The position numbers were made by a program, and so were the translations under genes. This document shows, in pieces, positions 4,001 through 42,437 of a stretch of DNA of 43,699 nucleotides. The stretch spans positions 1-43,699 of the forward strand of contig JAQUVI010000006.1 in NCBI GenBank assembly GCA_028693445.1. The letters are read 5' to 3'. Below the pieces are notes generated by a model that saw nothing but the letters and a program-made list of their open reading frames with translations, ran no database searches and had not been told where the DNA came from. Position 1 is the stretch's first letter. Each line of letters opens with the position of its first letter. Source of the DNA: Candidatus Absconditabacteria bacterium (lineage in GTDB: Bacteria; Patescibacteriota; Gracilibacteria; Absconditabacterales; Absconditicoccaceae).

Positions 4001-4005
4001 TTTTT

Positions 4006-4035
4006 GGAACGTTAAAAATTAGAACGTTAGACTTT
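4006..4035. repeat. 15-bp GGAACGTT repeat, two units (intergenic)
   Basis: Two adjacent 15-base units (4006-4020 and 4021-4035), both beginning RGAACGTTA. They fill almost the whole gap between two minus-strand genes. The same unit occurs at 6910-6939, 12263-12277 and 41143-41180. Confidence 0.75.
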
Positions 4036-6416: not shown

Positions 6417-7808
6417 TTAAATTATAGTCTTTGTTGGAGAGAGTTTTGTGCGAATTTCGTAATCAATATCTCCAGCAGAAAAAATAGCAATAACATGGTT
6501 TGAATCAGAATTGTTTATTATATTTTCTATATCAGATCGTTTGTCGGTATATGTTCATCAACAGGCTTTGGCAAATATTTTTCAAAGTTCTGTTAGACTA
6601 TGGATGTTTTCTCATCTTTTGGAAAAATCAAAATGCGCAACATCTTCTCTAGCAGCGTAAATATCATAGATAAAAATTTCATCATATCATTTGAAACTTT
6701 GCACAAAATCATCTCGTCAGGTAAAAATTCTATTGATTTGGTGTGGTTGGAAAATTGCAGTAATTTTTTTGTCAGGAAATTTATTTTTGAGAGCTTCAAA
6801 ACCTATTTTGATTGATGATGCCATATGTCCATAATCCGAAAAAAGTTGAGTTCAATTTTGTGTCTTTCCGAGATATTCTAGGCGGCGTCGGAGTCATTTG
6901 AATGATTTTAGAACGTTAGTATTTGGAACGTTAGATTTTTTAATATTTGATAACAATGCTAGTGTCAGAGAAGAGTTTTTGTTGGTATGTGGTCAGAAAA
7001 TATAGTCAAATTTGTATTCTGTCTCTGGGGTTTCTATGATATTTTTAAAAAATTTAAATTCTGGATTTTTTTCGAGGAATCATTTTGTAACAAAACATTT
7101 TTGTTTTAATTTTGTTAGCATTTCTTTGAACGCATTTTTGTAATCATCAAAGGTTTTGTAATAGTCGGCGTGGTCGTATTCTATATTAGTGATAGCTGCG
7201 TAATCCAGATCTAGATTTAGGAAATGGCGTTTATATTCACAAGCTTCAACTATAAAAAGAAGCTTTTTGTGATCTATAGGTGTTGGAGTTTTGCCAGTGA
7301 AAATTTTGGTAAAAATGTTTTTGATTTCTGATTTATGGTTTGAGTTGATAAGATAACTTTGGTTGTTGAAATCTGGTGTAAGAGCTCATAGAATTCCTAG
7401 TCCAAAATTTGGTATATCTTTTGCTCAATAAATAGTTAAAGCTGTTGTCGAACTTTTCCCGTTAGTTCAAGTGATTCCTATAGTTGTAAAATATTTAGAA
7501 AGTTCTCCCAAAAATTGGAAATAATTCATAATTAGTATCATTTTTTGTTCTTGGGAAATTAGCTCTCTTGCTCAAATAACTTCTGGACTGTTTACCGCAG
7601 CTTCAGAGTAAATTATTGCGTCATCGATTTTTGGTTGATAGTTTCCATGGCCTATAATTACTTTGAGCCCTTTTTTTTGTAGGTTGTCAGTGAGTTGGCT
7701 TTGATTATTATCGATACAGATGATATTGGTAAATCAGAGTTCGTGCAGAATTCCTGCAACCCCTGACATTCCTGTTCATCATGCTCATACGAGGACTATG
7801 TTTCACAT
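6417..7808 (-). CDS. murC: UDP-N-acetylmuramate--L-alanine ligase
   Basis: 463 residues, a normal MurC length. It adds L-Ala to UDP-MurNAc in the cytoplasm, the first step of the peptidoglycan stem peptide. Visible features are an N-terminal nucleotide-binding fold (VLVGAGGTGMSGVA, residues 6-19), the ATP loop GITGTNGKSS (111-120), and a TNIEYDHADYY segment in the central domain. The C-terminal domain includes RRRLEYLGKTQNG, SDYGHMASSIK and FQPHQINR. Residue 2 and several catalytic-loop Gly are TGA-encoded. Unusual: the linker SNVPNTNVL (encoded at 6910-6939) comes from a 15-bp dispersed repeat, and the usual VEADE motif reads VEACEYKRHF. The cell therefore keeps at least part of peptidoglycan synthesis. 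Confidence 0.95.
6910..6939. repeat. 15-bp GGAACGTT repeat inside murC, two units
   Basis: Units 6910-6924 and 6925-6939 both carry GAACGTTAG. They are in frame within murC and encode SNVPNTNVL, just before the FKGLRRRLEYLG segment that opens the C-terminal domain. Confidence 0.75.
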
Positions 7809-11897: not shown

Positions 11898-12257
11898 ATG
11901 AAAGAAAACAATCAAGAAATGCCTATAATTCCTTATGATATTTATGAATCACCTCAAGAATTGGTTGTGTTTTTGCCATTGTGAGGAGTGAAAAAAGAGA
12001 GTGTTTGTCTTTCTATAAAAGATTATAAATTAGTTATTAGTGGTGAAAGAGTTCAACCTATAATCAAAGATAATCTTGTTCCACTCAAAGAATCTTGTTA
12101 TCGAGGACCGATTCACCAAGAAATAGATTTACCTCCACAAGTTTATTTTGATAAAATTCATAGTAAGCTTTCTACTGATAATACTTTGCAAGTTATTGTT
12201 CCAAAGGCACTTATCCCAGAAAAAATCGCTTTGGAAGTAGAATATGATTCTAACTAG
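11898..12257 (+). CDS. Small heat-shock protein, Hsp20 family
   Basis: 119 residues. The alpha-crystallin-type pattern is visible: YDIYESPQELVVFLPLGGVK, then IKDYKLVISGERVQP, YRGPIHQEIDLPPQV and TLQVIVPKALIPEKI, where LIP resembles the IxI tail motif. It would hold unfolding proteins in the cytoplasm. One Gly of LPLGGVKKE is TGA. The sequence is slightly short and divergent at the G-x-L core, reading STDNTLQVIVPK. Stops with TAG. Confidence 0.82.
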
Positions 12258-12262
12258 ATATT

Positions 12263-12277
12263 GGAACGTTGGATATT
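12263..12277. repeat. 15-bp GGAACGTT repeat, single unit
   Basis: GGAACGTTGGATATT, one unit of the family seen at 4006, 6910 and 41143, directly after the hsp20 stop codon. A partial second unit (GGATATAATC) follows. Confidence 0.6.
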
Positions 12278-12306
12278 GGATATAATCTAAAGACTAAAAA
12301 ACTAAG

Positions 12307-12326
12307 ATTCCCATTTTTATGGGAAT
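12307..12326. repeat. Perfect 8-bp hairpin element, ATTCCCAT
   Basis: ATTCCCAT, TTTT, ATGGGAAT, followed by GACATAG. It lacks a T run, so it is not an obvious terminator. It resembles the widespread TCATTCCC...GGGAATC type of dispersed hairpin. The surrounding 12278-12410 holds no gene. Confidence 0.55.
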
Positions 12327-12414
12327 GACATAGAGAAGATAGGGATGATATAGAAAAAAGCTAATTGTTACTAATGTTCTAAAGATCTAATATAGTTTGA
12401 TTTTGTAAAGGAAA

Positions 12415-18783: not shown

Positions 18784-19977
18784 TTATTTTCAGTAGTTTC
18801 TGCCTTCTAATTCTTTTGGAAAAAGTTGATTTGTTGTTTTTTTATTTGGTTGATCGTGAGTATATTGATAGTTTTTTCCGTATCATAAATCTCCCATAAA
18901 TTTGGTTGGTGCATTTCTGATATCCATTGGTACAGGAAGATTTCCATATTTTTCTATATCGGCTTTTGTTTCCAAAGAAATTTTGTAAGTAATATTGTTT
19001 TTTGGAGCTTTAGCTAGGTATAGAGCAAGTTGTATAAGAAAAATATCGCATTCTGGCATACCAATTTTATGAACAGAATCGTAGACTTGATTTGCTAAAA
19101 GAAGAGCATTGTTGTCGGCGGGGCCGATGTCTTCGGATGCGAAGCGGAGTAATCTCCTCGCTATATATAGCGGGTCCTCCCCGCCGGCTAGCATTCTTTG
19201 AATTCGATAACAGGCCGCGTCAGCGTTGCTGTCGCGAAGTGATTTGTGAATTGCTGAGATGATGTTGTAGTGTTCTTCACCGTTTTTATCGTAATAAAGA
19301 TTTTTTTGTCCGGCTATTTTTACGTCTTCTTGAGTTATTTCTCCTGTTTTTTTCAAAAAAATAGTCGCTTCCAAAATATTTAAACTATTTCTCAAATCTC
19401 AGTTACCAAGTCTTGCTATATAAGAAATAATCTCGTCGGAAACAATAATTCCAGGATGAGATATCAGAATTTTTTGTCGATTGTTTTTTATAAATGCTAC
19501 GATATCTTCTTCTCATAATTTTTCGAAAACGAAGGTTCTTGTCCTAGAAAGTAATGCGCTATTAATAGAAAAACTTGGATTTTCTGTGGTTGCTCAAATC
19601 AAAATAATATCGCCTTTTTCTACATGGGGAAGAAGTGTGTCCTGTTGTGCTTTGTTTCGACGATGAATTTCATCCAAAAAAATGATAGTTGATTTTCCGT
19701 ATTGTCTATTGGTTTTTGCTTGTGCTAAAATTTGTTTGAGATCTTCTTTTTTACTAGTTACTCCTGATAAAAAAAAGGTTTCTGCCTCTATAGTATTTGC
19801 TATAACTTTGGCAATAGTAGTTTTACCGCAACCTGGAGGTCATCGGAAAAGCATTGAAGGGATTTTTTTTTGTTCCAAAAAAATGCGAATAGGTTTGTTT
19901 TCACCGATAAGGTGCTTTTGTCCTATACATTCGTCTAGGGTTTGTGGTCTAAGTAATGATGAAAGTGGTTCGGACAT
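18784..19977 (-). CDS. rarA: Replication-associated recombination protein RarA (MgsA family AAA+ ATPase)
   Basis: 397 residues. MSEPLSSLLRPQTLDECIGQ and the Walker A GPPGCGKTT (46-54), Walker B IIFLDEIHRRNKAQQD, sensor IGATTENPSFSIN and the C-terminal RRLLRFASEDIGPADNNALL are diagnostic for RarA/MgsA, which acts at stalled replication forks with SSB. The first Gly of Walker A is TGA-encoded. A patch around 19105-19235 (LAGGEDPLYIARR...) is far richer in G+C than the rest of the gene. A tract of 18-bp repeats lies directly upstream of the start codon. Confidence 0.95.
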
Positions 19978-19981
19978 ATTA

Positions 19982-20063
19982 GGTGGGTTAGATAGATTAG
20001 ATGGGTTAGATAGATTAGGTGGGTTAGATAGATTAGGAGCCTAATAATGTCTAATCTATCTAA
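19982..20063. repeat. 18-bp tandem repeat with terminal inverted repeat
   Basis: Three units of GRTGGGTTAGATAGATTA lie at 19982-20035. The last unit forms a 13-base perfect inverted repeat with 20051-20063 (TTAGATAGATTAG / CTAATCTATCTAA). The same unit occurs inside the DnaQ-DinG gene at 40603-40633 and 41826-41864. It lies between the rarA start and the giant gene. The remaining 20064-20224 is AT-rich with no clear promoter. Confidence 0.8.
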
Positions 20064-20224: not shown

Positions 20225-23200
20225 ATGTATTTTTTGCATAAAAGGCCTTTAATTTGACTTTTGTTGCTTATATATTCATTATCCTACTTTTTGCAGAGTT
20301 GGTTTTTTGTTGACTTTTGAGGTGTTTTTGCTGAAAATCCTTTGAATAGAACCAATTTGATAGCTGTTTTTGTAGATAAAGATGTTTATCAAAATTCCAA
20401 AAATAGCATAGAACGATATGCAACTGATTATATTCAACAACGTGTTTCTAACTCAAAAGCATTGATATTGCCTATAAATACTCAAAATTTCAAAGCGATT
20501 GATTTGGTAAGAATGCTTGAAAATATGTATTTTGATTGAATAAAATGAGAAACATCAACATTGCTTTGAACAGTTTTGATCTGAGATATTCCGTTGCCTG
20601 TTGTACAAAATAATTGATTTGTATATCCTACAATTTTTCCGTATGTGGATTTTGAAGAACAACAATTTATCTACGATAATAATCAGAAATTCTTTGTATA
20701 TAACAATAATCCTAGAGGCCAGGCTGAAATTTGGCATTGAATAATTAATTTTTGATCAGATTCAAAAAAATATGGTGACTATTTTCAAAAACTAAAAACA
20801 TATGTAAGTTCTCCAAAAGATTTTGTTGCACCTCTTATGTGGTATGATGATTTTGTAGGTATGAAAACTACTTTTGATGATGATACACTTCCATTTTATG
20901 TTAATAATTTTTTGTTTACAGAAGACGTTGGTTATCATAGATTTACCAATTTGATGCTTGATTATTTTAAACAGGTTCAAAATGATGGCGTAGGTGATTT
21001 GGTTTCTTCGTTATCGGCTGCATCTCAAAACAATCCACAATTAGCTCAAATTGCATCACAATCTCAATCATCTTTGGATGCTTTATGATCACCAAAAGTT
21101 CCTACTACAATGTTGTTATCTGTTATAAAAGAACTTTTGAAATGATATGAAAATTTGTATCCTGGTGTTTTTCTTTCTGCTATGAAAGATAATGCACAAG
21201 CTGCGGCTAGATGGTACAAAAAAACATGAAGTGGGGTATGGTTGGATGGTATGGATTCACATCTTCATAAAATAGTTCTCAAAGATACTCTTACATTATG
21301 AGATCCTGGTAAGTGATTATCTCCTTTGATAGTGTCTTTCAATGACGCTATGGAAAAAGCGTTGGATGAAAGAATAGAAGAAGATCGTCTTTATATGACA
21401 TTGCCTGTAATTGTACAATATAATCATCAAGATTTTAAAACAGAGAAAAAAAGAATTTTATGAATTCCTAAACGTTGGTGTGAAAAAATAACAGATGATA
21501 TTTATAATAATTACTACTTTGGTACTTATGCGGCTGATATAACTTCTGCTGAACAGTTTAGTGCTTATAAATGAACTTTTAGAAATTTGAATACATTTTC
21601 TGGTGTTGTTGTTTTGGATACTTGATACAATTCTTCAAATGCTAAATCTCTTTGATCTAGTAACAATCTTTTCTCTACTCAAGTAGATGCAAATAGATGA
21701 TATAATTTGATGTCAGCAGCAGGTGATTATGATACTTACAGTGAAAATAAAATTAAAGAAAAAAAAGAAATTTCTTGTAGTAAATGGTTTCTTCCTTGGT
21801 TTCATATTTTTTGTATGACAAAAAAATCTAAAGAGATTTGAGATACTTATGAATCAATAGAAGACTTTGCTATTAGAGGATGGGGATGAGCATCTAGTTT
21901 GAATTTGAATTCTTGATTGTTGTCGTCAGATATCCCAGAATATGTGTTGAATCAATATAATTATAAATCAGCTTTGTTTCCTGTTTATGATATTTGATGA
22001 TCATTATCGGTTAAAACTTGAAATCTTTCTGCTTATTCATCTTCTGGAAGTAAGGATTATGCTTCTCTTGTTAAAGTTAATGATCGTTATTGAAAAGTAG
22101 ATTATCCAAAATATATTAAAGGATCTGTTGATAATTATCCTGATGGTGTTTATGTATCAAGTGGTGGTTATAAAATGCTAAGTGGTACATCTAGAATATG
22201 GGAAGATTACAATAATTTTGATTTTTTTGATATTTGGAATAAAACATCAGATAAATGAAGCAAAATGTGGAAAATTATCGATATGAATTCTTTGAAAAAA
22301 GAATGGAAATCGTCTGATTCTATGTGATGAAAATGTGACGGTAAAAGAGAAATTTATAGTTATACATATAAGACTATTGATTCTAGAATAAAAAACACAT
22401 CACCAACTCCAGATCAAATAAATGGTACATATCAAAATGAATTTTCTGAAGAAGGATTGTTTTGGAAACATTATGATTATCTAAAAGAAAATATAGAATT
22501 ATTGAAAGATCAATCAAAATTATCTTTTGATGATGCTTTTTCTGGTTTGCAATTTTTGTTGTCTTGACACAAAGAAATTAATTCTGGCATAAATTCTTTT
22601 GTTGAATTAAATTCTACTGATCCTGTTGCTTTATTGTCTTGAGTACAAGATATTTTTTCTCAAACAGGAAAACAACAATATATTGAAATATTTTCTGGGG
22701 TATTTAATTCAATGGAAGCTAGTTCAGACACTTTACCGGCATTAAATTTTTGATTGGTACTTGCTTATTTTGATGTTATAAGAGAAACTGAAACACTGTA
22801 TAATCAAAAAACAAAATTTCTTTCTGGATGGAGTAATGAATTATTGTCATGAATATCTGTTATACAGATGCAATATAATTCTTTGCCTAGTACTTTTGCT
22901 CAAATTACGTGACTTTACTCGCAAATAGAAAATCAAAAATTTGCTACATGATCTTTGATTACCAAAAAATCTGAAATCAATAAATTACAAAATTGTTGAA
23001 CAGCATTGTTGCCAGATTATTGTTGATGTACAAATAATTATAAACAGGTTTGTGATAAAATAGATGAATTAGTGCTTTCTTTAGATGATTTATCTCAAAC
23101 GCTTCCAATATTAAAATATACAACTGTTGAAGAAGAGATTGATTGAGAAGTTGTTACAATAGAGATTAAAATTATAGAATCTATTCAATTATCTTTACAA

Positions 23201-26200
23201 GAAGCTTCTGCTGAATGATGATTTTTACAAGATATTCCATTTGTTGTATTTGGTATTAATTCAATAGAAAAAGTTGATGAAGTTCCTCCATTAACGTATG
23301 TTAAATGACTCAATCAAACAACGCAAGATAGACCTATAGATTGACCAAGAAACATTACTTTTCAATGACTTGGTGGTGATGTAGTGACTTTTGTATATCC
23401 AAATCTTTATGATGTTTCTGTATATAAACAAGAATGATCAAATCTTGTTTTGAAGACAATTGCAGAAATACAACAATGAATCACTGCTTATCTAATTAGT
23501 AAAGCGAAAGAATACAACCAGCTTCTTACCAAACAAGAACAAAAACGTCAACAATATTATAATAGTGATTTTGCTGCGTTTGATTTTCTTGCAGAAACAG
23601 ATTCTTTAGCAACACCCAAAAATCGCACTACAGAGTTATTGTCAGAAGATTTTTTTGTAAATTTGATCGGTAATCAACGTATTTTTGAATTAGCAGAATT
23701 AATGTATTATCAGACGCTTCCAGTATATTCCAAAAAAAACGAGTCTTATGTAGACAAAGATTTGGATGCTATTAGGACAGCTTTTGATGTAAATAAAAAA
23801 ATATCTTATATTCTTTCTGGATATCTTACTCATCATGAGAATCAATGAGAACTAATTACACCAACATATAATGCTTCATGATATGAAGTTGCTTATATAA
23901 ATTCTGATAGAGCTGATTATATTTCAGCGGCAGAGATGCCCCCATTTATAAAACAAATTCAGGAACAACAAAAACCAATTTCTAACGTAATTATAGAGGA
24001 TCCTGTTTTATCACAAAATGAATTGTATACAGCTACTAAAGCTCAGTGTTGAATAGATTCTAGTTATTCAGAATTACTTTTTGATCTAAAAGAAGAACAG
24101 GGTAAATGAAAAATGCCTTGGGTTACTGCTTTTGAATGTTGGCTGACAACAATTCCTTCGTCTATAAAATTTGATATATCTATGGAGGTTTGACCCTCTT
24201 TTGGTGATTTTTTGTCTGGATTACAAGCTTCTCTTGATGATTGGAAAACTTCTATGAAACAAGTTTTTGATCCTGAAGAAGAAGAACCTTGAGCTGAATT
24301 TTCTGGTAATATTGATGAGTATTGGACCAATGTTATTATGATAACTTGAGATAGTGTTGTTTGACCAAAAATAAAAACTATTTCTTTAGAAACACCTACA
24401 ACAAAATTACTTGCTTGATCTCAGTTTCCTATTCAAATAACAGCAGAAGATTTTTCTGGAAAAGTTGTAAAAAGAACTATGGATACTTATTTTGTTTATG
24501 TTTCTACTGGTAATTGAGAATTTATATGAGGTGGTTCAAGTTGACCGAAAAGTATGGAGTTTTCAGATTTTGATAGGACTCTTGTTTATCAAGCACCTAA
24601 TGTACAAAGACCAACAAATATTACTGTTTTCTTGGCTTGAGCAGATGTTTGAACTCAAAAAAATATTTTGGTAACACCAGGAAATTTCAAAGTTAGTTAT
24701 GAAAATCGTGCTTTATATGAAAATAATACTTTAAAAAATTGATTGTCGTTTACTCTTACTTGAATTGATTCTACTTTTTCTAGCGTTCCAAGAATTGTGA
24801 TTTCTTTGCGTGCTCAAGATGGTTCTTTGTTGCAAACTCCATTTTCAGTTGTTAGTAAAAATGGTCTTGTTAGTCCATGAATAATTTCTTCTTGAGTTTT
24901 TGTTTGATTGCATACTTATTTTTTGAAAAACACTGAACAAGTTGTATTCTTGATGCCAAATTATCGTGCATGAAATGATGAGTTATATATTCAAATTCCT
25001 GGTCTTGATCGTATTGTAATTCCTATTACAGTAAATCCATGAAAAGCATATAATGTTTCTATAAATATGGAATCAAATATTTATAATATTTGAGATTCTT
25101 TTAGTGGGTCATTTTTTGTATCTGATAATTGGTGAAATCCTATTTCTGGTACTGCAGCATTGAAGATTTGATCATTATGAGCACTGGATTTTTCTACAAA
25201 AACAATTTCAGTAAAAAATGAACCATATTCTTTTTCATCATCAACAAAAGATCCATGATGAATTAGTTATATTTATGCTTTTATTGATTGAATTCCACTT
25301 AGTGATCAGTCTCCTGCTTATAAAAAAATTATTGTTCAAGAGACGTTTCTTCCACAAAAGAATTTGAATGTTATGTACTTAAATCTTTTTGGCTCTGATT
25401 GGTGAGATATTTGGACTTTTGATGCTATAAATCCTAATTATATTCCAAATCTTATTAACTCTTCTCAAAAGCTTCTTTCAATTACTACACAAATAACTGA
25501 TACTTCTAGTATAAAAAAATTTGCTAGTGTTGTTTCTGATAATGGTCAGATTTATAATTTTTCTAATCGTGAAACAATTTTAAAAATTGATTCAGGTTTT
25601 TTGATTGGTGAAATCAAAGATGTTGCTAATATTTCGTTGTTTAAAACAAAAGATATTTCTCTATTTTCTTCAGATAAGCCAATTGATTCTATAAAATCTT
25701 TTTCTTCCAAAAATTCAGCTGCTTTGTTTTTTGAAAAAAATGAAGATACCAAAGACATAGAAATAACAGACAAAACTATTTCTTTGGATGGCCAGTTGCT
25801 TTTTGATATCAAAAATAATCTTTGGAATACTTGATTGAAAATTGTATTGTCTGATAGTATGAAGCAATGATATAATGTGTGGAATATTCTTTATGAAGAA
25901 GAGCAAATCTGAAATTTGTATTTTGTAAAAAATAATTCTACATTGTTGTCGGATATTGTACTTTATAATGTAGTCACATACGATAAAACTATTACTTTTG
26001 CAGAATGATCTACTAATTGACAAAAATGAATCTGAATAGTTGATGTTTTGTGAGTTTTTGAAAAAGAATGATACGCTTCTATTGAGGATAGTAATGACTA
26101 TGAGTTGGGTATTTGATTTAGATCTGATTTCAAAAACATTACTTTGTTTGGTGATGGTAAATCTGTTTGAGAATCTACGATTCCTTTTGGTTCTCAATTT

Positions 26201-29200
26201 TTGATAAATTTTGGAGACCCTCTTTTGACTAGAATATCTAATAACAATGAAATAAAATCTGTTTCTATGGATTTGGGAATAGGTGAACAAATATATACCA
26301 ATCCTTCAAAATCTATATTTAAAGTTATTGATACTGATTTTAATAATGATTGACTCAAAGATATTTTGGTAGTCTTTACTGATTGAACAATAAAATTTCT
26401 AAAAAATTATGGAGGCACTCATCCTTATACGAATATGCAAGATCTTATTCGTTTGGCTGATAGTATAAAAGATGTTTTTGTATGAGATGTAGATGGAAAT
26501 AATTATCCAGATATTTTAGTTTGGACAAATAGTGATCAATTGAGAGTATATAAAAATGATAAATGAATTGTAGATGTGGATTGAAATATGATATGTTTGA
26601 ATATAAATGTTGATAATACAAAAGTACAAGAAAATCCAGAATCTGTTGTTTGATTACAACAATTATTTTTTGAAGATATGGATAAAGATGGAAGTATTGA
26701 TATTGTTACAAATGATCTTGTCTGAGATATAAAAGTATTTTATGGGTGATCAAAAAATTCGAAAGCAAATTATGTTTCTACATTGCCTTATGCTTGTGAT
26801 GATGATTGGTATGACAGACAAAAAGATAATGTTAAATTGGTGAAAAGTTTTGGTGTGGTTGTAGATCCAGATTTCTATATTCAGGATGATAGTATGATCC
26901 ATGTTGAGGGGTGGCTTATAGAAAACCAATCTGATTCAATAAACGACTCTGATAGTCAATGATGAGATTTGCCAGACGAACTTGATATCCCTATGGGAGA
27001 AGATTTTGATATAGGAACTTTTGTTTCTTCTATGTCAAATTATTCTCAACAATTGGCTTATGATAGTCTTAGTGATGTGTTTTCTGTGGCGCCTGTATCT
27101 TATATGCCAAGTTATGAATCATGAATTAGTCTGGAAAAAATCTGATATAGAACATTGATACAACTTTCGTGAAACGACTCTATAAGTGTTTATAAAAAAT
27201 ATAAAGATTTGAATTGATGAGCTTTGCTTAGTTGAGATATAGTAAAGATAAATACCACTATTGTTTGATTACAAAACAATACGAAAGCAACTTATTTTGA
27301 TCGTATTCTTTGACCTTGGGAAGTTGAAACTGATGATGAAAACAAAATAATTTCTTTTGCTAAAGAATCATGAGAATTTGATATGGAAGATATTAGTTGG
27401 TTTGATAGTGATGATTCGTTTTTTGTCTTGGATAATATAATATTGGACAATCGTCAATCTATGAGTTTTTCTTATCAAGTTGTGTATAGATGAGAGCCAA
27501 CTGTTGCTATATCTGTTGAAGATGTTGATTTTTTGGAGAAGGATAATGAAAAGGATGAATATCTAGATATTGTTGTTACACCTCTTGATAGTTGTCAAAA
27601 ATATAGATGGTTGTTTTTTAATACTTCTTCTCAAAGTCATAGATCGTATCAGGAAGAATTTGATGATATACAGGCAAAAATTGATTCGTTTTCAGAAGAT
27701 TGATTAAAAGAATGACAAGAATTATTTGATAAATCGGTTCCTGAAATGAGTAAGGATGATGCAGATGATGAATGTGATGAAGGTTGTGCAAAAGAAATAC
27801 AAGATAATACCCAATCTCTTATTGATGATGCCATGAATTCAGTTCCTGCTATAGCAGATGTCTTTGAATCCTGGACTGTTTCTGATTTATTTTCGTCTTC
27901 AACAGAGACGAATTTTGAGATTAATATGGATGCTATTAATTCTATGTTGGCTCCTGTATCTGAATGATTGGATAAACTTTTGGATGATCTTTGTGCATGA
28001 TTTAAACTTTGAAGTGATTGATGTCAACCACCATTTCCATTTAATAAAATCCCATTTAATCAGGCATTTTTGGCGCCAGGTAAATATCATATTTTTGGCT
28101 GTACACCTACTATACCACACCCTTTGGCGCCGATTTTTACGATAATAAATGATAGATTTTGAGCCTGATTTCCATTATTATTTTTCCCTGGTACCTTACA
28201 AACTCCAGTAGGTCCTGTTCCTATGATTGGTTCAAGCTTTGTGCCTATTGTGCAACAAATGCCATGAAGTGATTGATTTTGACTTTCACCCGGATTTCCT
28301 CCTACTTGATGAACATATCCCTCACAAATTAGATTATATTTGGTTCCTACTTTGACGCTTCAACTTGGAGTTGCTATCTGTTTTGGTCCTTATAAGTTAT
28401 GAACAGCTCTTCCTCCTTTGGTAAGAGATTTGTGATGACAATGTGTTGTGGTAGCTTTTCCTTTATATACTTGTAATAAAACACCAAAACCTTGATCTGA
28501 AGACGAACCTTCCACAGAAAAATTGGATTCTTGGATGGTTGATTCTGCAAAAAATTGATCTTGTGATGAACCAATGCAATATTGATCAGCAAAAGTTATT
28601 TCAAATACAACTATTATTCAACAACAAACACAAAAATCACCATTTAGACTTTCATCTGTTTGAGCTCAAAATTCTTCTTGGACTTCAGCTGTTCCAAATG
28701 CAAATATTGGATATGTTTCCTTTTCTTCAAAACCAACAAAAAAATCTTCTTTAAACACAAATCCTGCATTTGTTCGTTGATTTAATTTGGATCCATTTAG
28801 TTTTTTACAATGACCTACTGTTGATTTGAAGATAAAAGATAGTAATGCAAAATGAATTATAAAAGCATTGGTAAAAGATTGGTTTGGTAGACAGGTTAAA
28901 TATATGATAAATAATTTAACAACACTTACTATTAATGTTACTTTACCAGATATTTCTCAATTAGCTGATTGATTTGGTGGCTTATTTTCTGCAACAGCTT
29001 GGAATTCTGCTTCAGAGGAATCAGATAATTGACAATTTGATTATATAAAAGATGCAGAATGATTTTGAAGTAAATTAAAGGCTATTACATCAAGGCAAAC
29101 TTATGCTGCAGCTAGTTCTGCTACCAATAATCCGTTTGAATCTTTGATTACTATATTTCAATCTATACCTTTGGTTGATTTGTATACAAAAGATGTAGTT

Positions 29201-32200
29201 ATAAAAATTCCATTGCCAACATCTGATGATATTGTAAAATATGAAAATTATGGTAGAACTTGGTTGGATAATCAAAAAAAAATATTGAAAAAATGGTTGG
29301 AAGCCGTACATGAATTGGCTTATGTTTGTGGAAAAGTAACAAAAGAAGATGCAGAAACCTGAATTAAATATTTAGAGTGAGAATTATCTAGAATAGAGGA
29401 AATTAAGAGTGATGCTAATTATCCAAAACTTAAAGAATCTTTGAATAAAGAAAAAGATTTTCTGGAAGATGTTTTGGAGGATCCGTCGCTAACTGATAGC
29501 GATATGATTAATATAGAAGATGTAAAAGCTGTCTTGAATGATATAGGCAGACAATTTGAATTTTTTGGAAAGAGAGTTGTAGCATTACCAAGATTGAATT
29601 TTGTTAAAACTTGTTTGGAAAGTTCTGATTCAACTGGTAATTGTAAACCTTGGGCAACTCTAAATGATAAAGAAAAAATTAATCAATTATCTATTGTAAA
29701 TAAAAAAGTTGATGAGCTTTCTAGTTGTGCATCTTTTGCCGGTGATTTAGACAGTTTTGTTAATTTTTATAATGATGCTTTGTGACTTGTAAGAAATGTA
29801 CAGCAAAATATTCAGGTATTGGAACAATACAAACAATTCCCGTTACAACTTTATGATTGGATGCATTTTGTAGATAAATATATGTCGGATATTATTGGGT
29901 TTGTTTCTACATTATCATCTACTTTGATGTGATGGATGAATGTAAATGCAAGAATTTATGCTAAGTGGATAGATTCTTTGATTCTTATTTTGACTACTAT
30001 AAAAACATATCAAGTTTTGATAGATTTGACTGTTAATTGGACAAAAAATTGTGGTAAATGTTCTCGTGATTGATATGGGGCTCATGGTTGTAGTCTGAGC
30101 TTCTTGTTTCCACAAATCCCTATTATACCTATACCGCCTTTTAAAATACCAAATATAAATATAGATTTTTCTCATGTAGATTTGTGAATTAGTATAGCTT
30201 TACCAAGATTTGTTTTTGTCCCAGTTGATTTTCCGTTACCACAGTTACCTAGTTTGCCATCGCCACCAGATTTTAATTTGGCTTTGTGATTGGATTTTAA
30301 AATAGATTTAAAATATGATTTACCACAAATCCCTTTGTTACCGTCACCACCTAATTTACCAGAACTACCTTCTTTTATACCAAAGATAGATTTTTCTTTA
30401 CCAACAATACTTCCACCTGCTCCCAAAATACCATCAATTATTCCTGAAGTATCTACTATTATTGAAATAGCAGAATTGGTTTCAAAAATATTTTGTATTT
30501 TGAAAAAGGGGATTGGTTTGGTTTGAGAAAAATGAATAAAAGCAAAAGTTGAACAACTTACTCAGAGAACTTGGGATGTGCCTATTTTTGATTTTTTCAA
30601 TCAGACTTTTAGTTGGAATGCCGATCCAAAACCACAATGATTTGATTATCAAATTGACTGATTTCTGCAGTTTAAGATGGATTTTTCTGGATTTTATGGA
30701 TTTTTGAATCAGATTTCTGAATATGCAAATTCTTTGACTTATAGCGTAACTAGTGCTTATTCAAAATGATTGGATTTTGTTAATTCTGGAAGTAATTCTA
30801 TTACAAATTTCTTGGATGAGAGTATCCAAGATGTAGATTTGGATTTTACTATTCCTCCATTAGATATTTCTGTAGATGCTTTGTCTAGTGTTCCGACTAT
30901 GGATTATGAAGTTGCTTATAAAGAATTAAATGATCAATTATTTACTTTCAAAAATAGTGTTGAAGAACAAAAAATAATAAATGATGTAGAAAGTATGATA
31001 TCTGTTTTAAATACAAAAGCTGTTGTAAATCCAGCTACTGAAAATATACAGAAAATACATGATGAAATTCAGACTATATTGGATGAAAAACAAAAAGAAG
31101 TTCGTCAATTAGCTACATCAATTTCTTCTTATGACAATTTTATTGCTAAGGTAAAGCGTAATGATATAGCTTTGGTAAATGATGATAATATTGAAATTAG
31201 TTTTTCATCTCCTTTGTTTACTACGACAAAAGAAACGTACGAAATTATTGAAAACCAAGAATCTCCGCTTAAAGCATATATGGATACAAACTCTAGTTTG
31301 GTAGGTTGATATTTACAATCTTTGGAAGATTCTTCGTATGATGAATTGAAAATTTCGAAAGATGATTATGAAAACACCAAAACTTATTTAGAGTCAATGA
31401 AGTTAACAATAGATAATGTTTATGATAAATTGTGATTTGATAAAGTAGCTTATTCTTATTGTGGGGTGCCTTCTATAGTTGAAGATACTACTAAATTTGA
31501 TTCATCGACTTCTTCTATTCCTTTATTGGCTCAATCTTGTCCTACTTGTGGAGATTGAGATTCTGGTTGAAGTCCATCATGATTTTGATGAGATATATCT
31601 TCGTATGTTCGTGGTGTATTTGTTGAAGATTCACAATCTTGAAATATGGTAAATGTTGTTAGATCAGATTCTTTTATCTCCAATATACGTGATCGTTATT
31701 TTGTTTCTGATATAAATAACAATAATTTACAAGATCTTGTGATGCGAGACAATAACTCTATCTATGTAAAATATGCGAAACAAGAAACTCAACATAAAAA
31801 CACCAAAAATAATTCATCTCTTTTTGCTTATTCTCCTGGTATATTTTCATCTTATTATATAAACTCTTATGATGATCTTTTGGAAAAAACAGCTAAAGAT
31901 GATGGATATGTAGATTTTTGAAATATATCTGTAAAACTGACTTCATCTGTTCAAGAAGTGAAAAATTTTAGAGTTGCTTGACAATCTTTTGATGCGATTC
32001 AAATGTCTTGGATAAATCATGATTCTTTTGGAGAAACGGTAGATGGTTATTTAATAAAACTTAATCATAGAATAGATACTTATAATGATAAAGATACAAA
32101 TTTCCGCTTTTTGGATGATAAGTTTTTGAATAAAAGATATATTTTGATGCTTCCTAATGATTCAAATTATAGTTGATCTACAATAGATTTTAAAGAAAAA

Positions 32201-33484
32201 TATTATTATAAAGGTAAAGATGCTGATAGGGCTAGAAGTGTTGTAGATTTCTTATCTTGATGAATGTATTCAGAATTAATTTTGGCTGTTAAATTTTATC
32301 AACCAGCCCAAAAAACTATTTCTTTGTGACTCAATGAAATACCTAGAAATTGGCAATATGCAGAAATAATTCCTCTCAAAAATACAAATAATGAAGAAAA
32401 TCCTTATTATATTCCAAGTTGACCATGGTCAAATCAAATAGTGGCTGGAAGACAAATTTTGTCTGATAGTATTTGACCAGAAGCTCTTATACATTTTAAT
32501 AGACCATCAATATCTGAGACAGTAAGTGTTTGATCTCGTCATAATTGATTTGTTTGAACAAATTATGATATTGTTATTGATTGGAAAGATAATGTGGCTG
32601 TATCGGATATGTGGATAGAAAAGGATTGAAAAATTATTTCTTCTTCCAAAGCCAATTCTCCAGAAGCGACAATACAGCTTACATGATTGTATTTTACGTG
32701 AGAAACAAAATTGGAATATATTGCAGGAGCTCAGGATTTTAACTGAAACAAACAATTAGAAAAAATTACTATAGAAATCAAAACACCAACAATCGAAATC
32801 AAAGATTTTATACCTATATCAGAGTTTTCGTGACAACTTGTTGCTGAACTTTCAAACGATATTGATCAAGGTATGGTAGTTTTCCAAAGACAAAGAAATG
32901 ATGTTTGGCAAGAAATGTCATGAACATTGGCAAATACTTATTGATGATTCTTTGTTGGTCCAAATCAAACAACTGTTACATGATCTGTATTTAGTATGTG
33001 AAATACCCTTGGTTTGTATGATAATAATTGAAATGAAATAGGGCAAATTACTATTGATGGACAAGTTACTATTCTTCCAATATATCAAGATCAATATCAA
33101 ATAATGTTGGATCTGGTGACTTGATATCCATTGGTTCGTGTTTTGGATAAAAAAAGCGGTACTACTGTGTTCTGGATACAAATGCCATCTACTTCTTTGA
33201 GCGATGTTACTTTGTATCAACAGGAGCCTTTCTATACCAAGGTTGATCTTACTGAATCAAGCTTTGGTGCGTTTTTTGGTGGAACTTGTATCCAATCTTT
33301 GGATAAAGATTGTGTGTTATATATTTCTTCAATAGGTCAAATATATATTCCAAATTCTTCATCAACATCATTGGTAGGTGAATATCGTTATGATACTACA
33401 ACACGTTCTGTTATTTATGTGATAAAGGATTTTTTGGAAAAAGATATTGTGAGAATTACTACAAAAACTCGTCTTATGAAATAG
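20225..33484 (+). CDS. Giant secreted surface protein with FG-GAP/VCBS-type repeats (about 4,419 aa)
   Basis: One open frame of 13,260 bases under code 25; the standard code would cut it at a very large number of TGA codons. ATG 20225 gives a signal/anchor segment (KRPLIGLLLLIYSLSYF... to FAENP, residues 1-40). Residues about 40-200 have alternating strands and a LLGTVLIGDIPLPVV motif that recalls caspase-like (C25) folds, unproven. Calcium-type repeats D-x-D/N-x-D/N-G are seen at about 2031 (DTDFNNDGLKDILVVF), 2088 (VGDVDGNNYPDILVW), 2148 (FEDMDKDGSIDIV) and 3828 (VSDINNNNLQDLVM). Pro-rich stretches lie at about 2610-2720 and 3295-3410, and Ig/FN3-like segments after about 3890. No C-terminal anchor. 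Likely an adhesive or contact protein on the cell surface. Confidence 0.9.
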
Positions 33485-39406: not shown

Positions 39407-40336
39407 TTATAGTTTTGTAGTATCCCAAGGTCTTCGATCATAGTTGTTTTTTAGTAAAGATATAGCTTTAATATTTTTTTCTGTATAATTTCATTGTAAT
39501 AGTGTAGCTATAAAGTTGTATTTTTGAGCTAATACTTTGTTTTTGCTGGCAGTAAATTTGAAGAAGCTTTGATGATTTATAAAGAGATTGAAACATTCTG
39601 CAAAATCTTCAAATGGGTTTGTCATTCCATATCAACTACAAAAATCTCTTTTGGTGGCGGTTTTTTTTCTGACTTTTTCGGATTCTCGAGATATTTTGTA
39701 ATATAATAATGATGGGTCGTTTATAGGAAAAACTATTTTATTGAATTCTGTAAAAAGCTGGCTTTTTGTGTTTTTATTTCCTTGGATTGTTCATAAATCA
39801 AATATGTGACCTAGTTCGTGAGTAGATAAATTATGAAATTCTTTGATGTCGTTTACTGGTCATATATTGAGTACAATAGTATCTCGTGTTGCATATCATC
39901 TTTTTTGGGATTCGTCGTTTTTGATTGTGATTTTTTTGATAGTATCGATAATTTTTTTGTTTATTATTTGATTGTCGTTTATAAAATATGTTGCTGCATG
40001 TACTTGATTTTTGTAAGGAATTATAATAGTTTTGTTTTGTGTTTCTATTTTTTGGCAAAGAGGGTCGCTTTGTTTACATTTATCTTGAATATCTGGGGCG
40101 CTTTCGTGTATTTCTTCCACAATATTTTCTAAATTATTTGTCTCTTTTTCTTCTTCCTTAATAGGCTCTTCAATATAAGTTTTGCTTAAATAATCTTTGA
40201 AAAAGATTGATTCCTGTGTTTCGCCCACTTTTTCTTCTTTTCGCAAAAACCCTAGCAAAAGGATACTTGTTGCTATCAAAAATTTGATAATATCGCTGAA
40301 CAAGACTTTATTTGTTGGCATACCATTGGATGTCAT
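39407..40336 (-). CDS. Membrane-anchored zinc metallopeptidase (HELGH type)
   Basis: 309 residues. One N-terminal membrane helix (about 14-31), an acidic linker (EEPIKEEEKETNNLENIVEE), then a peptidase-like domain. This has VNDIKEFHNLSTHELGHIFD, giving the zinc motif HELGH (His173, Glu174, His177), and a downstream NPFEDFAECFNLF (about 240-252) that could supply the third zinc ligand, as in gluzincins with an ED-x-x-E helix. It would act outside the membrane. TGA encodes Gly in GLY/GYG positions after residue 146. It overlaps the end of the DnaQ-DinG gene by 29 bases and precedes exported-protein genes, a plausible set of substrates. Confidence 0.75.
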
Positions 40337-42437
40337 TTAAAATTGATTGTTCATTATTTCCTCTTATATTGAAAATGATGATTTCATCAAGAGAAATGCA
40401 CTCTGCATATATGGATAATAAGAACGCATAGCCACCGATAATGATTTTTGGATTGTTATTTTTGAGTTTAAATATATTTTTTCCGGCTCATCATGTGATG
40501 TTTTCGGCTACTATGGTGTAATGATTGTGGAGATTGTTTTTGTATAATGTTTCAAATATTTGTTTGGATTCTTCTTTTCTTGTGGATGCGATGAAGAAGG
40601 ATTTAGATAGATTAGATGGGTTAGATAGATTAGAAGAGTTAGGTTCGTGGGTTGGAATGTTACTTTGTATGTAAGTGAGAATCCTATCATAAAGTCAGAT
40701 TTTGGTTGTTTTGATTGATTGTTGTGGTTGAAGATCTGGAAAAAGATTGATAGCTGTTTTGTCGCTATTTGAGAAAAAGTAGATATTTGATGGAAAAATT
40801 TCAATAAATTCTGACCATGATGTATATTTGGTATGTTCGCTATAGACAAAATACATGTCTTCATTCATCATTTTTTTCTCGATATTTATCACAGTGTTTA
40901 ATAGCGTTTCGATGTGATCAAATTGTTTTTTGATAATAATAAAATCAGATTTTTCTATTTCATTTTCTAGTGTTGGAAAAGATTCTTTGATTTGTTTCCA
41001 AAGAAGGTTTGTTTTGTAAAAAGTTGAATCTGTGGTAATTGGGTTGCTTTGGATTCTATCAGCGTTATTTCCCGTAAAAAGCTGTTTGCTTTCCATAAAA
41101 AGTTGACCAATGAAAATTTGGAAAGAGTTGTAGAATGATTCTAGAACGTTAGGATTTGGAACGTTGGAACGTTGGTTTTGGGTTTGAGCATCGAGGGATT
41201 GTCTGTATAGGAGTGTTTCGATAAAATTGAGTGTATAGTACATATCCCAAGGGCGAGATAAGAAAAGATTGTAGCTTTTGTATCGTCGTTCTGCATCAAA
41301 AAACAAGGTTTCGTAATCTTGATATTCGTTGATTTCATCTTGGACATATGAAAATAATCCTTGATGTGTAGCCAAAACAATAGGATATCTCGTTTTTTCT
41401 TTTTTGTTTTTGATGTAATGATAAATTTGATAATCACTTTTGGTGTTGAGATCTAGTAGTCCAAGACCTTGTTCGAGATGAGAGTAATATTTACAGATAA
41501 ACATTATTTCTTCGTTGGTGTAGGTTGATTTATTGAGAAAATTTTCAAATTTTTGGTAGTCAATCATTTGATCGTCTTTGAGAAATCCGAGATTTTTGAT
41601 ACCCATAGAGTTGAGCATAGATTTTGCGATATTGAGTTTTTGTAGGTTGGAAAAAGCCAGAATTATTTTTTTGTTTGGGATAATTCTCTCAAGGAATGAT
41701 TTGAGATTTAGATTTCCTAAATAATATCTTTTTTGATTTTCTAACTCTGATGTGCTGAGCGTTTTTTCGTTTGGTTGGGGTTGGGTATTGGCTCACATAA
41801 TTTTGTTTAGCTTTGGGATGTCTTTGATAGATAGATTAGATGGGTTAGATAGATTAGATAGATATTTGGATAATGAGAAATTTGGGTTGGAAGTGAAGTG
41901 AGAGAGGATTGGATATTTTGTTTGTAGGAGTTCGAGTCTTTCGATAACTTTTTGAAAAAGAATAAGTGCATTTCTTGTATCTTGAAGTGCGTTGTGAGCG
42001 TTTTCTCCTGGCACAAGAACTTCAAGGGCGTAACTTGGCTGATAGTGTATCACGCCTTGTGCCAGCGGAAATGTATCAATGCTTTCAGCGTAGCTGAGAT
42101 CAGGAAAAAACTTATGTAAAAATGCTAGATCAAATTTGATATTGTGACCTATAAGCACAGTATTTTCTGTAAAAAATTGTTTGATATTTGGTAGAATATC
42201 TTGTGGTGTTGGAGCTTTTGCGATATCTTCAATATTGATTCCTGTAATAAATCAGACTATTGTTTTGAGTTCACTGAGATCTTTGGTAGGCTTGAGAAGT
42301 GATGAAAATTCGTTGATGATTTTGCCTGTGGGATCAATCTCGACTATTCCAATTTGGATTGGTTCGTCTTTGGTGAAATCTAATCCTGTGGTTTCAAAGT
42401 CGAGACCTATATATTTATAGTTTGGATTGAAGTTCAT
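40308..42437 (-). CDS. DnaQ-type 3'-5' exonuclease fused to degenerate DinG-like helicase
   Basis: 709 residues in one frame. Residues 1-170 form a DEDDh exonuclease: YIGLDFETTGLD (Asp13, Glu15), LIGHNIKFDLAFLHKF and AHNALQDTRNALILF. After an Asn/Ser/Pro linker made by 18-bp repeats, the rest follows the DinG helicase order: KIILAFSNLQKLNIAKSML, then VLATHQGLFSYVQDEI and LFFDAERRYK in the DEAH place, and TGGAGKNIFKLKNNNPKIII and GYAFLLSIYAECISLDEIII near the end. No Walker A GxGKT lies between exonuclease and these motifs, so ATPase activity is doubtful. Bacillus-type DinG has the same domain order. Two repeat-derived insertions (41143-41180; 40603-40633) also interrupt the helicase part. Confidence 0.82.
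40603..40633. repeat. 18-bp repeat inside the DnaQ-DinG gene
   Basis: TTAGATAGATTAGATGGG followed by TTAGATAGATTAG. In frame it encodes SNLSNPSNLS on the minus strand. Same unit as 19982-20035. Confidence 0.8.
41143..41180. repeat. 15-bp GGAACGTT repeat inside the DnaQ-DinG gene
   Basis: AGAACGTTAGGATTT (41143-41157), a truncated 8-base unit (41158-41165) and GGAACGTTGGTTTTG (41166-41180). Encodes RSNVPNPNVL on the minus strand, almost the same peptide as in MurC. Confidence 0.8.
41826..41864. repeat. 18-bp repeat at the exonuclease-helicase junction
   Basis: GATAGATAGATTA, GATGGGTTAGATAGATTA, GATAGATA. In frame it encodes YLSNLSNPSNLS, the linker between the exonuclease and helicase-like domains. 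Confidence 0.8.

Follow-up and report, generated by a model that had tools for sequence, protein, structure and literature searches.

Short DNA words dispersed between the genes of a Candidatus Absconditabacteria genome have also landed in frame in flexible loops of housekeeping enzymes, MurC among them. The repeat consists of TTAG or TTGG cores at 7-, 8- or 9-nt steps, with no constant 15-mer. We think it probable that they are short tandem repeats, dispersed and specific to this lineage, which persist in genes only where the reading frame and the linker tolerate them. Our literature search, incomplete in its coverage, found no paper on such repeats in this lineage.

The stretch of DNA analysed here (the window, 43,699 nt) belongs to a 1.17-Mb draft genome, G000, in 11 contigs (99.8% complete, 6% estimated contamination). 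Its genetic code is table 25 (TGA = Gly), under which MurC alone contains 19 TGA codons. A code-25 open reading frame of 4419 aa (20225-33484) occupies almost one third of the window. Its closest relative with a complete genome is Candidate division SR1 bacterium RAAC1_SR1_1 (G043; CP006913.1), a single contig of 1,177,760 bp. The same-genus species used for comparison were G043, the closest sister, and G044; the family set comprised 49 genomes. Gene calling covered 444 kb of G000 and, in the two relatives, 778 kb (G043) and 322 kb (G044). The family survey took about 38% of G000, partly around known sites, and its densities are not genome averages; genes make up about 87% of the G000 sample and intergenic DNA about 13%. 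The features of the window are as follows.

4004..4030, no strand: intergenic copy of two units 15 nt apart
6417..7808, minus strand: murC, open over 463 aa under code 25; TIGR01082 match at E 4e-63, below the curated cut-off
6906..6935, minus strand: 30-bp two-unit repeat (TTTTAGAACGTTAGTATTTGGAACGTTAGA on the plus strand) read as SNVPNTNVLK, MurC residues 292-301
12261..12280, no strand: intergenic single unit with degenerate TTGG neighbours, directly past a gene's stop codon (gene end at 12257)
19978..20063, no strand: intergenic 9/18-nt array plus inverted copy, touching the ATG of rarA (18784-19977, minus strand)
40308..42437, minus strand: DnaQ/DinG-like gene, 709 aa, open under table 25; exonuclease domain at residues 11-161
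40602..40642, minus strand: 9/18-nt family, in frame, SSNLSNPSNLSK in the DnaQ/DinG-like protein (site DinG-40603)
41141..41175, minus strand: GAACGTT family, three units at 8/15-nt spacing, QRSNVPNPNVL in the DnaQ/DinG-like protein (site DinG-41144)
41829..41861, minus strand: 9/18-nt family, in frame, LSNLSNPSNLS in the DnaQ/DinG-like protein (site DinG-41826)

The window contains the word GAACGTTRG seven times where 0.13 occurrences are expected; none of the shuffles reached seven, and a chance origin is rejected. Its positions (4007/4022, 6911/6926, 12264 and 41144/41159/41167) confirm the initial annotation, made from the sequence of the window, which had placed such units between genes, in murC and in the DnaQ-DinG gene. 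The fixed 15-bp unit described there does not hold. Copies are spaced 8, 15 and 22 nt apart, and what the family has in common is a TTAG or TTGG core repeated at 7-8 nt steps; most of the intergenic sites have degenerate neighbours as well. The genome-wide count proposed at that stage gives 24 occurrences, against 11 for the reversed control word.

Two sister families share the TTRG phase: a heptamer, CTTAGAA/CTTAGAG, and a 9/18-nt unit, TTAGATAGA/TTAGATGGG (also given as TTAGATAGATTAGATGGG). The earlier site list was right for GAACGTT and missed the 9/18-nt family, both in the DinG-like gene and upstream of rarA, whose immediate upstream region is a 9/18-nt array (window 19978). In 444 kb of G000, TTRG cores 7-9 nt apart form 34 runs of four or more, compared with 0-1 in Markov shuffles; the same criterion gives one run in 778 kb of G043 and none in 322 kb of G044. 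As families, the TTRG repeats are missing from the 778 kb of G043 examined, and the 322 kb of G044 hold only REP-like families. Neither G043 nor G044 contains TTRGAACGTTRG or the exact 13-mer of the 9-nt family. Sampled G000 contains a further, longer dispersed element with the words CACAAAAAACCCTCAGACCGG ... GACCGGTCCCGCAATTCTGCCGGATAAAAGTCCAAGGGTTC in 12 clusters, all intergenic. A palindrome, ATTCCCATTTTTATGGGAATGACA (H type, with ATGAC), lies at window 12307-12330, about 30 bp past the GAACGTTGG unit at 12264.

Could GAACGTTRG be a functional DNA site, such as a regulator, uptake or segregation signal, that is selected in place? Its AACGTT core is palindromic and its orientation is constant along each of contigs C3, C6 and C7, which may reflect the replication strand. 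We nevertheless consider such a site very unlikely: it has only 24 copies where the control word has 11, TTRGAACGTTRG is absent from G043 and G044, TTAGAACGTTAG is found in 3 of the 49 family genomes (G000 being one) and is absent from the other 46, and sister families with different cores show like behaviour.

Inside genes, the repeat encodes nearly the same peptide in two unrelated enzymes. As the initial annotation had noticed, SNVPNTNVL in MurC and SNVPNPNVL in the DnaQ/DinG-like protein are read in the same frame; under table 25 they are residues 292-300 and 424-432, respectively. The latter protein has no Pfam match outside residues 11-161, and 47 of the 49 family genomes have a match for murC. 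Outside the window, PrmC carries one in-frame copy of the 9-nt family (SSNLSNPSNLSNPSN, C11:22992). The MurC peptide directly precedes the C-terminal ligase domain, and in solved MurC relatives the repeat segment aligns gap-free with the stretch preceding that domain. All four in-gene sites of the window fall in variable, gap-rich columns of the family alignments.

A near-identical nonapeptide in two unrelated enzymes might suggest a conserved functional peptide, arising from protein-level selection or convergence. That is hardly credible here. None of the 29 family homologues aligned for each protein has the peptide, nor does either same-genus orthologue, and identical DNA occurs in intergenic arrays. 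The relatives examined already refute a conserved peptide, and the segment is lineage-specific and repeat-derived. An assembly or contamination artefact is also extremely improbable. The genome is an 11-contig draft with 6% estimated contamination, but the host genes are intact, their same-genus orthologues are 79% and 70% identical for MurC and 79% and 64% for the DinG-like protein, and the families are present on several contigs.

The repeats are in frame, as first claimed, but three of the four window sites are near length-neutral replacements rather than clean insertions. At the DNA level the MurC repeat is no plain 10-codon addition: the net gain is only 2 aa over both same-genus orthologues. 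DinG-41144 has a net gain of 1 aa over G043, and DinG-41826 shows no net change relative to both sisters. At these sites a variable linker has been replaced with a net change of 0-2 aa, which is unlike the prediction of simple insertion. DinG-40603 (+9 aa relative to the G043 orthologue) and PrmC (+13 aa in a 78%-identical orthologue pair) are true insertions.

Insertions were also compared systematically with G043. Across 132 orthologue pairs we collected internal insertions of at least 4 aa and called them repeat-derived when repeat words made up 20 bp or more of them. Over-represented dispersed words reach this total in 4 of 14 G000 insertions, whereas the rate for random segments within genes is 0.70% (P 2e-6); the 13 G043 insertions contain no repeat word at all. 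Raw 11-mer recurrence was dropped as a criterion, with 45-90% of control segments positive. Of the four repeat-derived insertions, those in PrmC and DinG come from TTRG families; the other two, absent from G043, come from other palindromic repeat families:

L156:10194-11300: REP-like VIASEMKQS, +10 aa, in an HI0933-like flavoprotein
L139:7931-9268: CGATTAATCGCG, +5 aa, in an RsmB/F-like methyltransferase

Repeat clusters are strongly depleted in genes, which make up most of the sample. None of the 19 clusters of the 7-nt heptamer (up to 186 bp long) lies within a gene, compared with 2 of 18 for the 7/8-nt family and 3 of 18 for the 9-nt family (binomial P 2e-17 to 4e-11). With counts this small, the difference between the heptamer and the other families (0/19 versus 5/36) is not significant (Fisher P 0.15). 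Stop codons account for part of the pattern. Heptamer arrays have stops in all six frames. Because four of them (L147, L153, L156 and L157) start at a gene stop codon, the TAG there is supplied by the TTAG of the repeat. The 15-nt form, reversed, leaves one of three frames open; the MurC copy leaves two of six (SNVPNTNVLK and FRTLVFGTL) and the 18-nt unit three of six (PSNLSN, LDRLDG and HLIYLT). The earlier argument that 15 bases never break the frame was thus half of the logic: the length does preserve the frame, but stop codons leave only one of the three antisense frames open. MurC and DinG have a peptide and frame in common partly because stop codons close the other frames. All five in-gene copies (MurC, three in DinG and PrmC) are read in the antisense, hydrophilic Ser/Asn/Pro frame, and by our estimate such agreement has a chance of about 1 in 100 when every open frame is given the same likelihood. 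A preference for this frame beyond stop avoidance is suggestive only.

Our explanation is that TTRG arrays originated in this species after it diverged from the sister species, and spread among its intergenic regions. Replication slippage would expand the arrays; short-homology template switching or repair copying would seed new sites and could swap a linker at near-equal length. Selection would purge new arrays from nearly all coding DNA. To survive in a gene, an array would need a spacing and strand that leave a frame open, and its Ser/Asn/Pro-rich peptide would have to fall in a change-tolerant linker. SNVPN(T/P)NVL, common to both proteins, would then be a by-product of this frame and linker filter, with no functional motif, and the repeat-encoded peptides are probably neutral. 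Dispersal, lineage specificity, in-frame presence, loop position and depletion in genes are observed; the spreading route is our inference.

The alternative is a non-autonomous mobile element, RPE- or MITE-like, that a dedicated enzyme moves and inserts in gene loops. The clean +9 and +13 aa insertions would suit such an element, as would the finding that in other species other elements sit in the same loops (DinG in G044; TsaD in G000, G044 and G048; PrmC in G046). We regard it as unlikely, however, because the arrays vary in their ends and spacing and lack terminal inverted repeats, because a linker was replaced at three sites, and because no Y1_Tnp and no DUF559 gene was found in the 99.8%-complete G000. 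On this absence, both the Y1 transposase and DUF559 were rejected as the agents that move the repeats of the window.

The same loops hold different inserts in different relatives. The DinG loop that has GAACGTT repeats in G000 holds another repeat in G044 (TGAGTCATTGCGAGCGAAAGCGTTGCAATCCAA, read GVIASESVAIQ). The TsaD loop preceding LDDAAGEC is short in G043; in G000 it has two REP-like units, whereas G044 has a single TAGATTCCGGCTCC..GGCCGGAATGACAT unit there and G048 a hairpin pair (loci L146:11277-12442, minus strand, L242, L239 and L241); these in-frame REP-like or hairpin repeats differ across three species. Among the inserts that differ between relatives in the DinG, TsaD and PrmC loops is an in-frame DUF559 nuclease domain.

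DUF559 domains (PF04480) are present in 28 of the 49 family genomes. In the ten proteins of relatives that we scanned, the domain forms an in-frame part of a longer open reading frame and splits or adjoins recognisable enzyme domains. These proteins, by locus, are PrmC (L255), RimO-like (L257), LepA (L258), LeuRS (L259), MnmA (L263), MurC (L264), Tgt (L271), Elp3-like (L273), MnmA again (L276) and Fmt (L277). The MurC and PrmC hosts were recognised via matches to P0001 and P0006 and the others by Pfam. The inserts are 105-110 aa long, and several are flanked by coding hairpins of the CCCTCC/GGAGGG type. The in-frame domain looks like a translated, non-splicing mobile nuclease. Among the titles of DUF559 papers that our literature search reached, with incomplete coverage, none concerned in-frame insertion of the domain. 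It is possible, and we propose it tentatively, that permissive loops of essential enzymes in this family are a common landing ground for TTRG arrays, REP-like palindromes and DUF559 domains, with DUF559 cassettes as unspliced, translated mobile nucleases and hairpin-only copies as their non-autonomous counterparts.

These findings bear on how such genomes are read. Short peptides common to their proteins may be DNA residue rather than function, and the inserts mark natural insertion-tolerant loops in MurC, PrmC and TsaD. Because a clean, complete sister genome is available, the filter of stop codons, frame and loop can be counted rather than assumed.

Among known repeat systems, head-to-tail intergenic 7-nt arrays are matched by the CTTAGAA/CTTAGAG family only. 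Cyanobacterial STRR are likewise tandem heptamer arrays, mostly intergenic and patchy among relatives. TAACTGA heptamers form direct repeats in Beggiatoaceae and cyanobacteria, and a stop-codon argument has been made for their exclusion from genes in one orientation (PMC4679880). The CTTAGAA/CTTAGAG family resembles this type in its 7-nt, mainly intergenic arrays and patchy distribution (PMC4679880), although the word differs. Unlike the heptamers, the sister families with 7/8-nt or 9-nt spacing are not shut out by stop codons and are found inside core enzymes. A related code-25 bacterium, gracilibacterium BD1-5, has a 9-nt coding repeat as well; this PTD 9-mer, unlike our 9-nt family, is confined to many tandem copies in one predicted surface protein and is not dispersed in housekeeping genes (PMC6851277).

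Neither a REP/RAYT system nor a DUF559-linked element describes the window repeats: the Y1 transposase (PF01797) is absent from G000, G043 and G044, G000 has no DUF559 genes, and the arrays are without hairpin ends. The best-documented cases of repeats spreading in frame into core genes are the palindromic elements of Rickettsia and Wolbachia. Rickettsia palindromic elements (RPEs) are 100-150 bp palindromes; like the TTRG repeats they have intergenic copies and in-frame, peptide-encoding copies in unrelated core genes, and RPE groups differing in kind are reported close together in orthologues of one gene (PMC10969869, PMC3767692). RPE-4/6/7 are rich in ATGAC and are reported to have common landing sites, with hot spots or common origin left open (PMC3767692). 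The TsaD and DinG loops, with repeats that differ between G000 and its relatives, present an analogous situation, and the AATGAC families of G000 and G044 (GTCATTGCG, TGTCATTCC) are nearer to RPE-4/6/7, judged by the ATGAC motif alone (PMC3767692). The TTRG copies are instead direct tandem arrays of 24-60 bp with variable spacing, lacking a palindromic unit of some 100-150 bp and palindromic only in the AACGTT core. The likeness to RPEs first suggested therefore stands for in-frame repeats at loop positions of core genes, but not for architecture. The process resembles RPE spread without being RPE: here, in a code-25 Absconditabacteria (SR1) relative, it is short, tandem, non-palindromic arrays that enter core genes.
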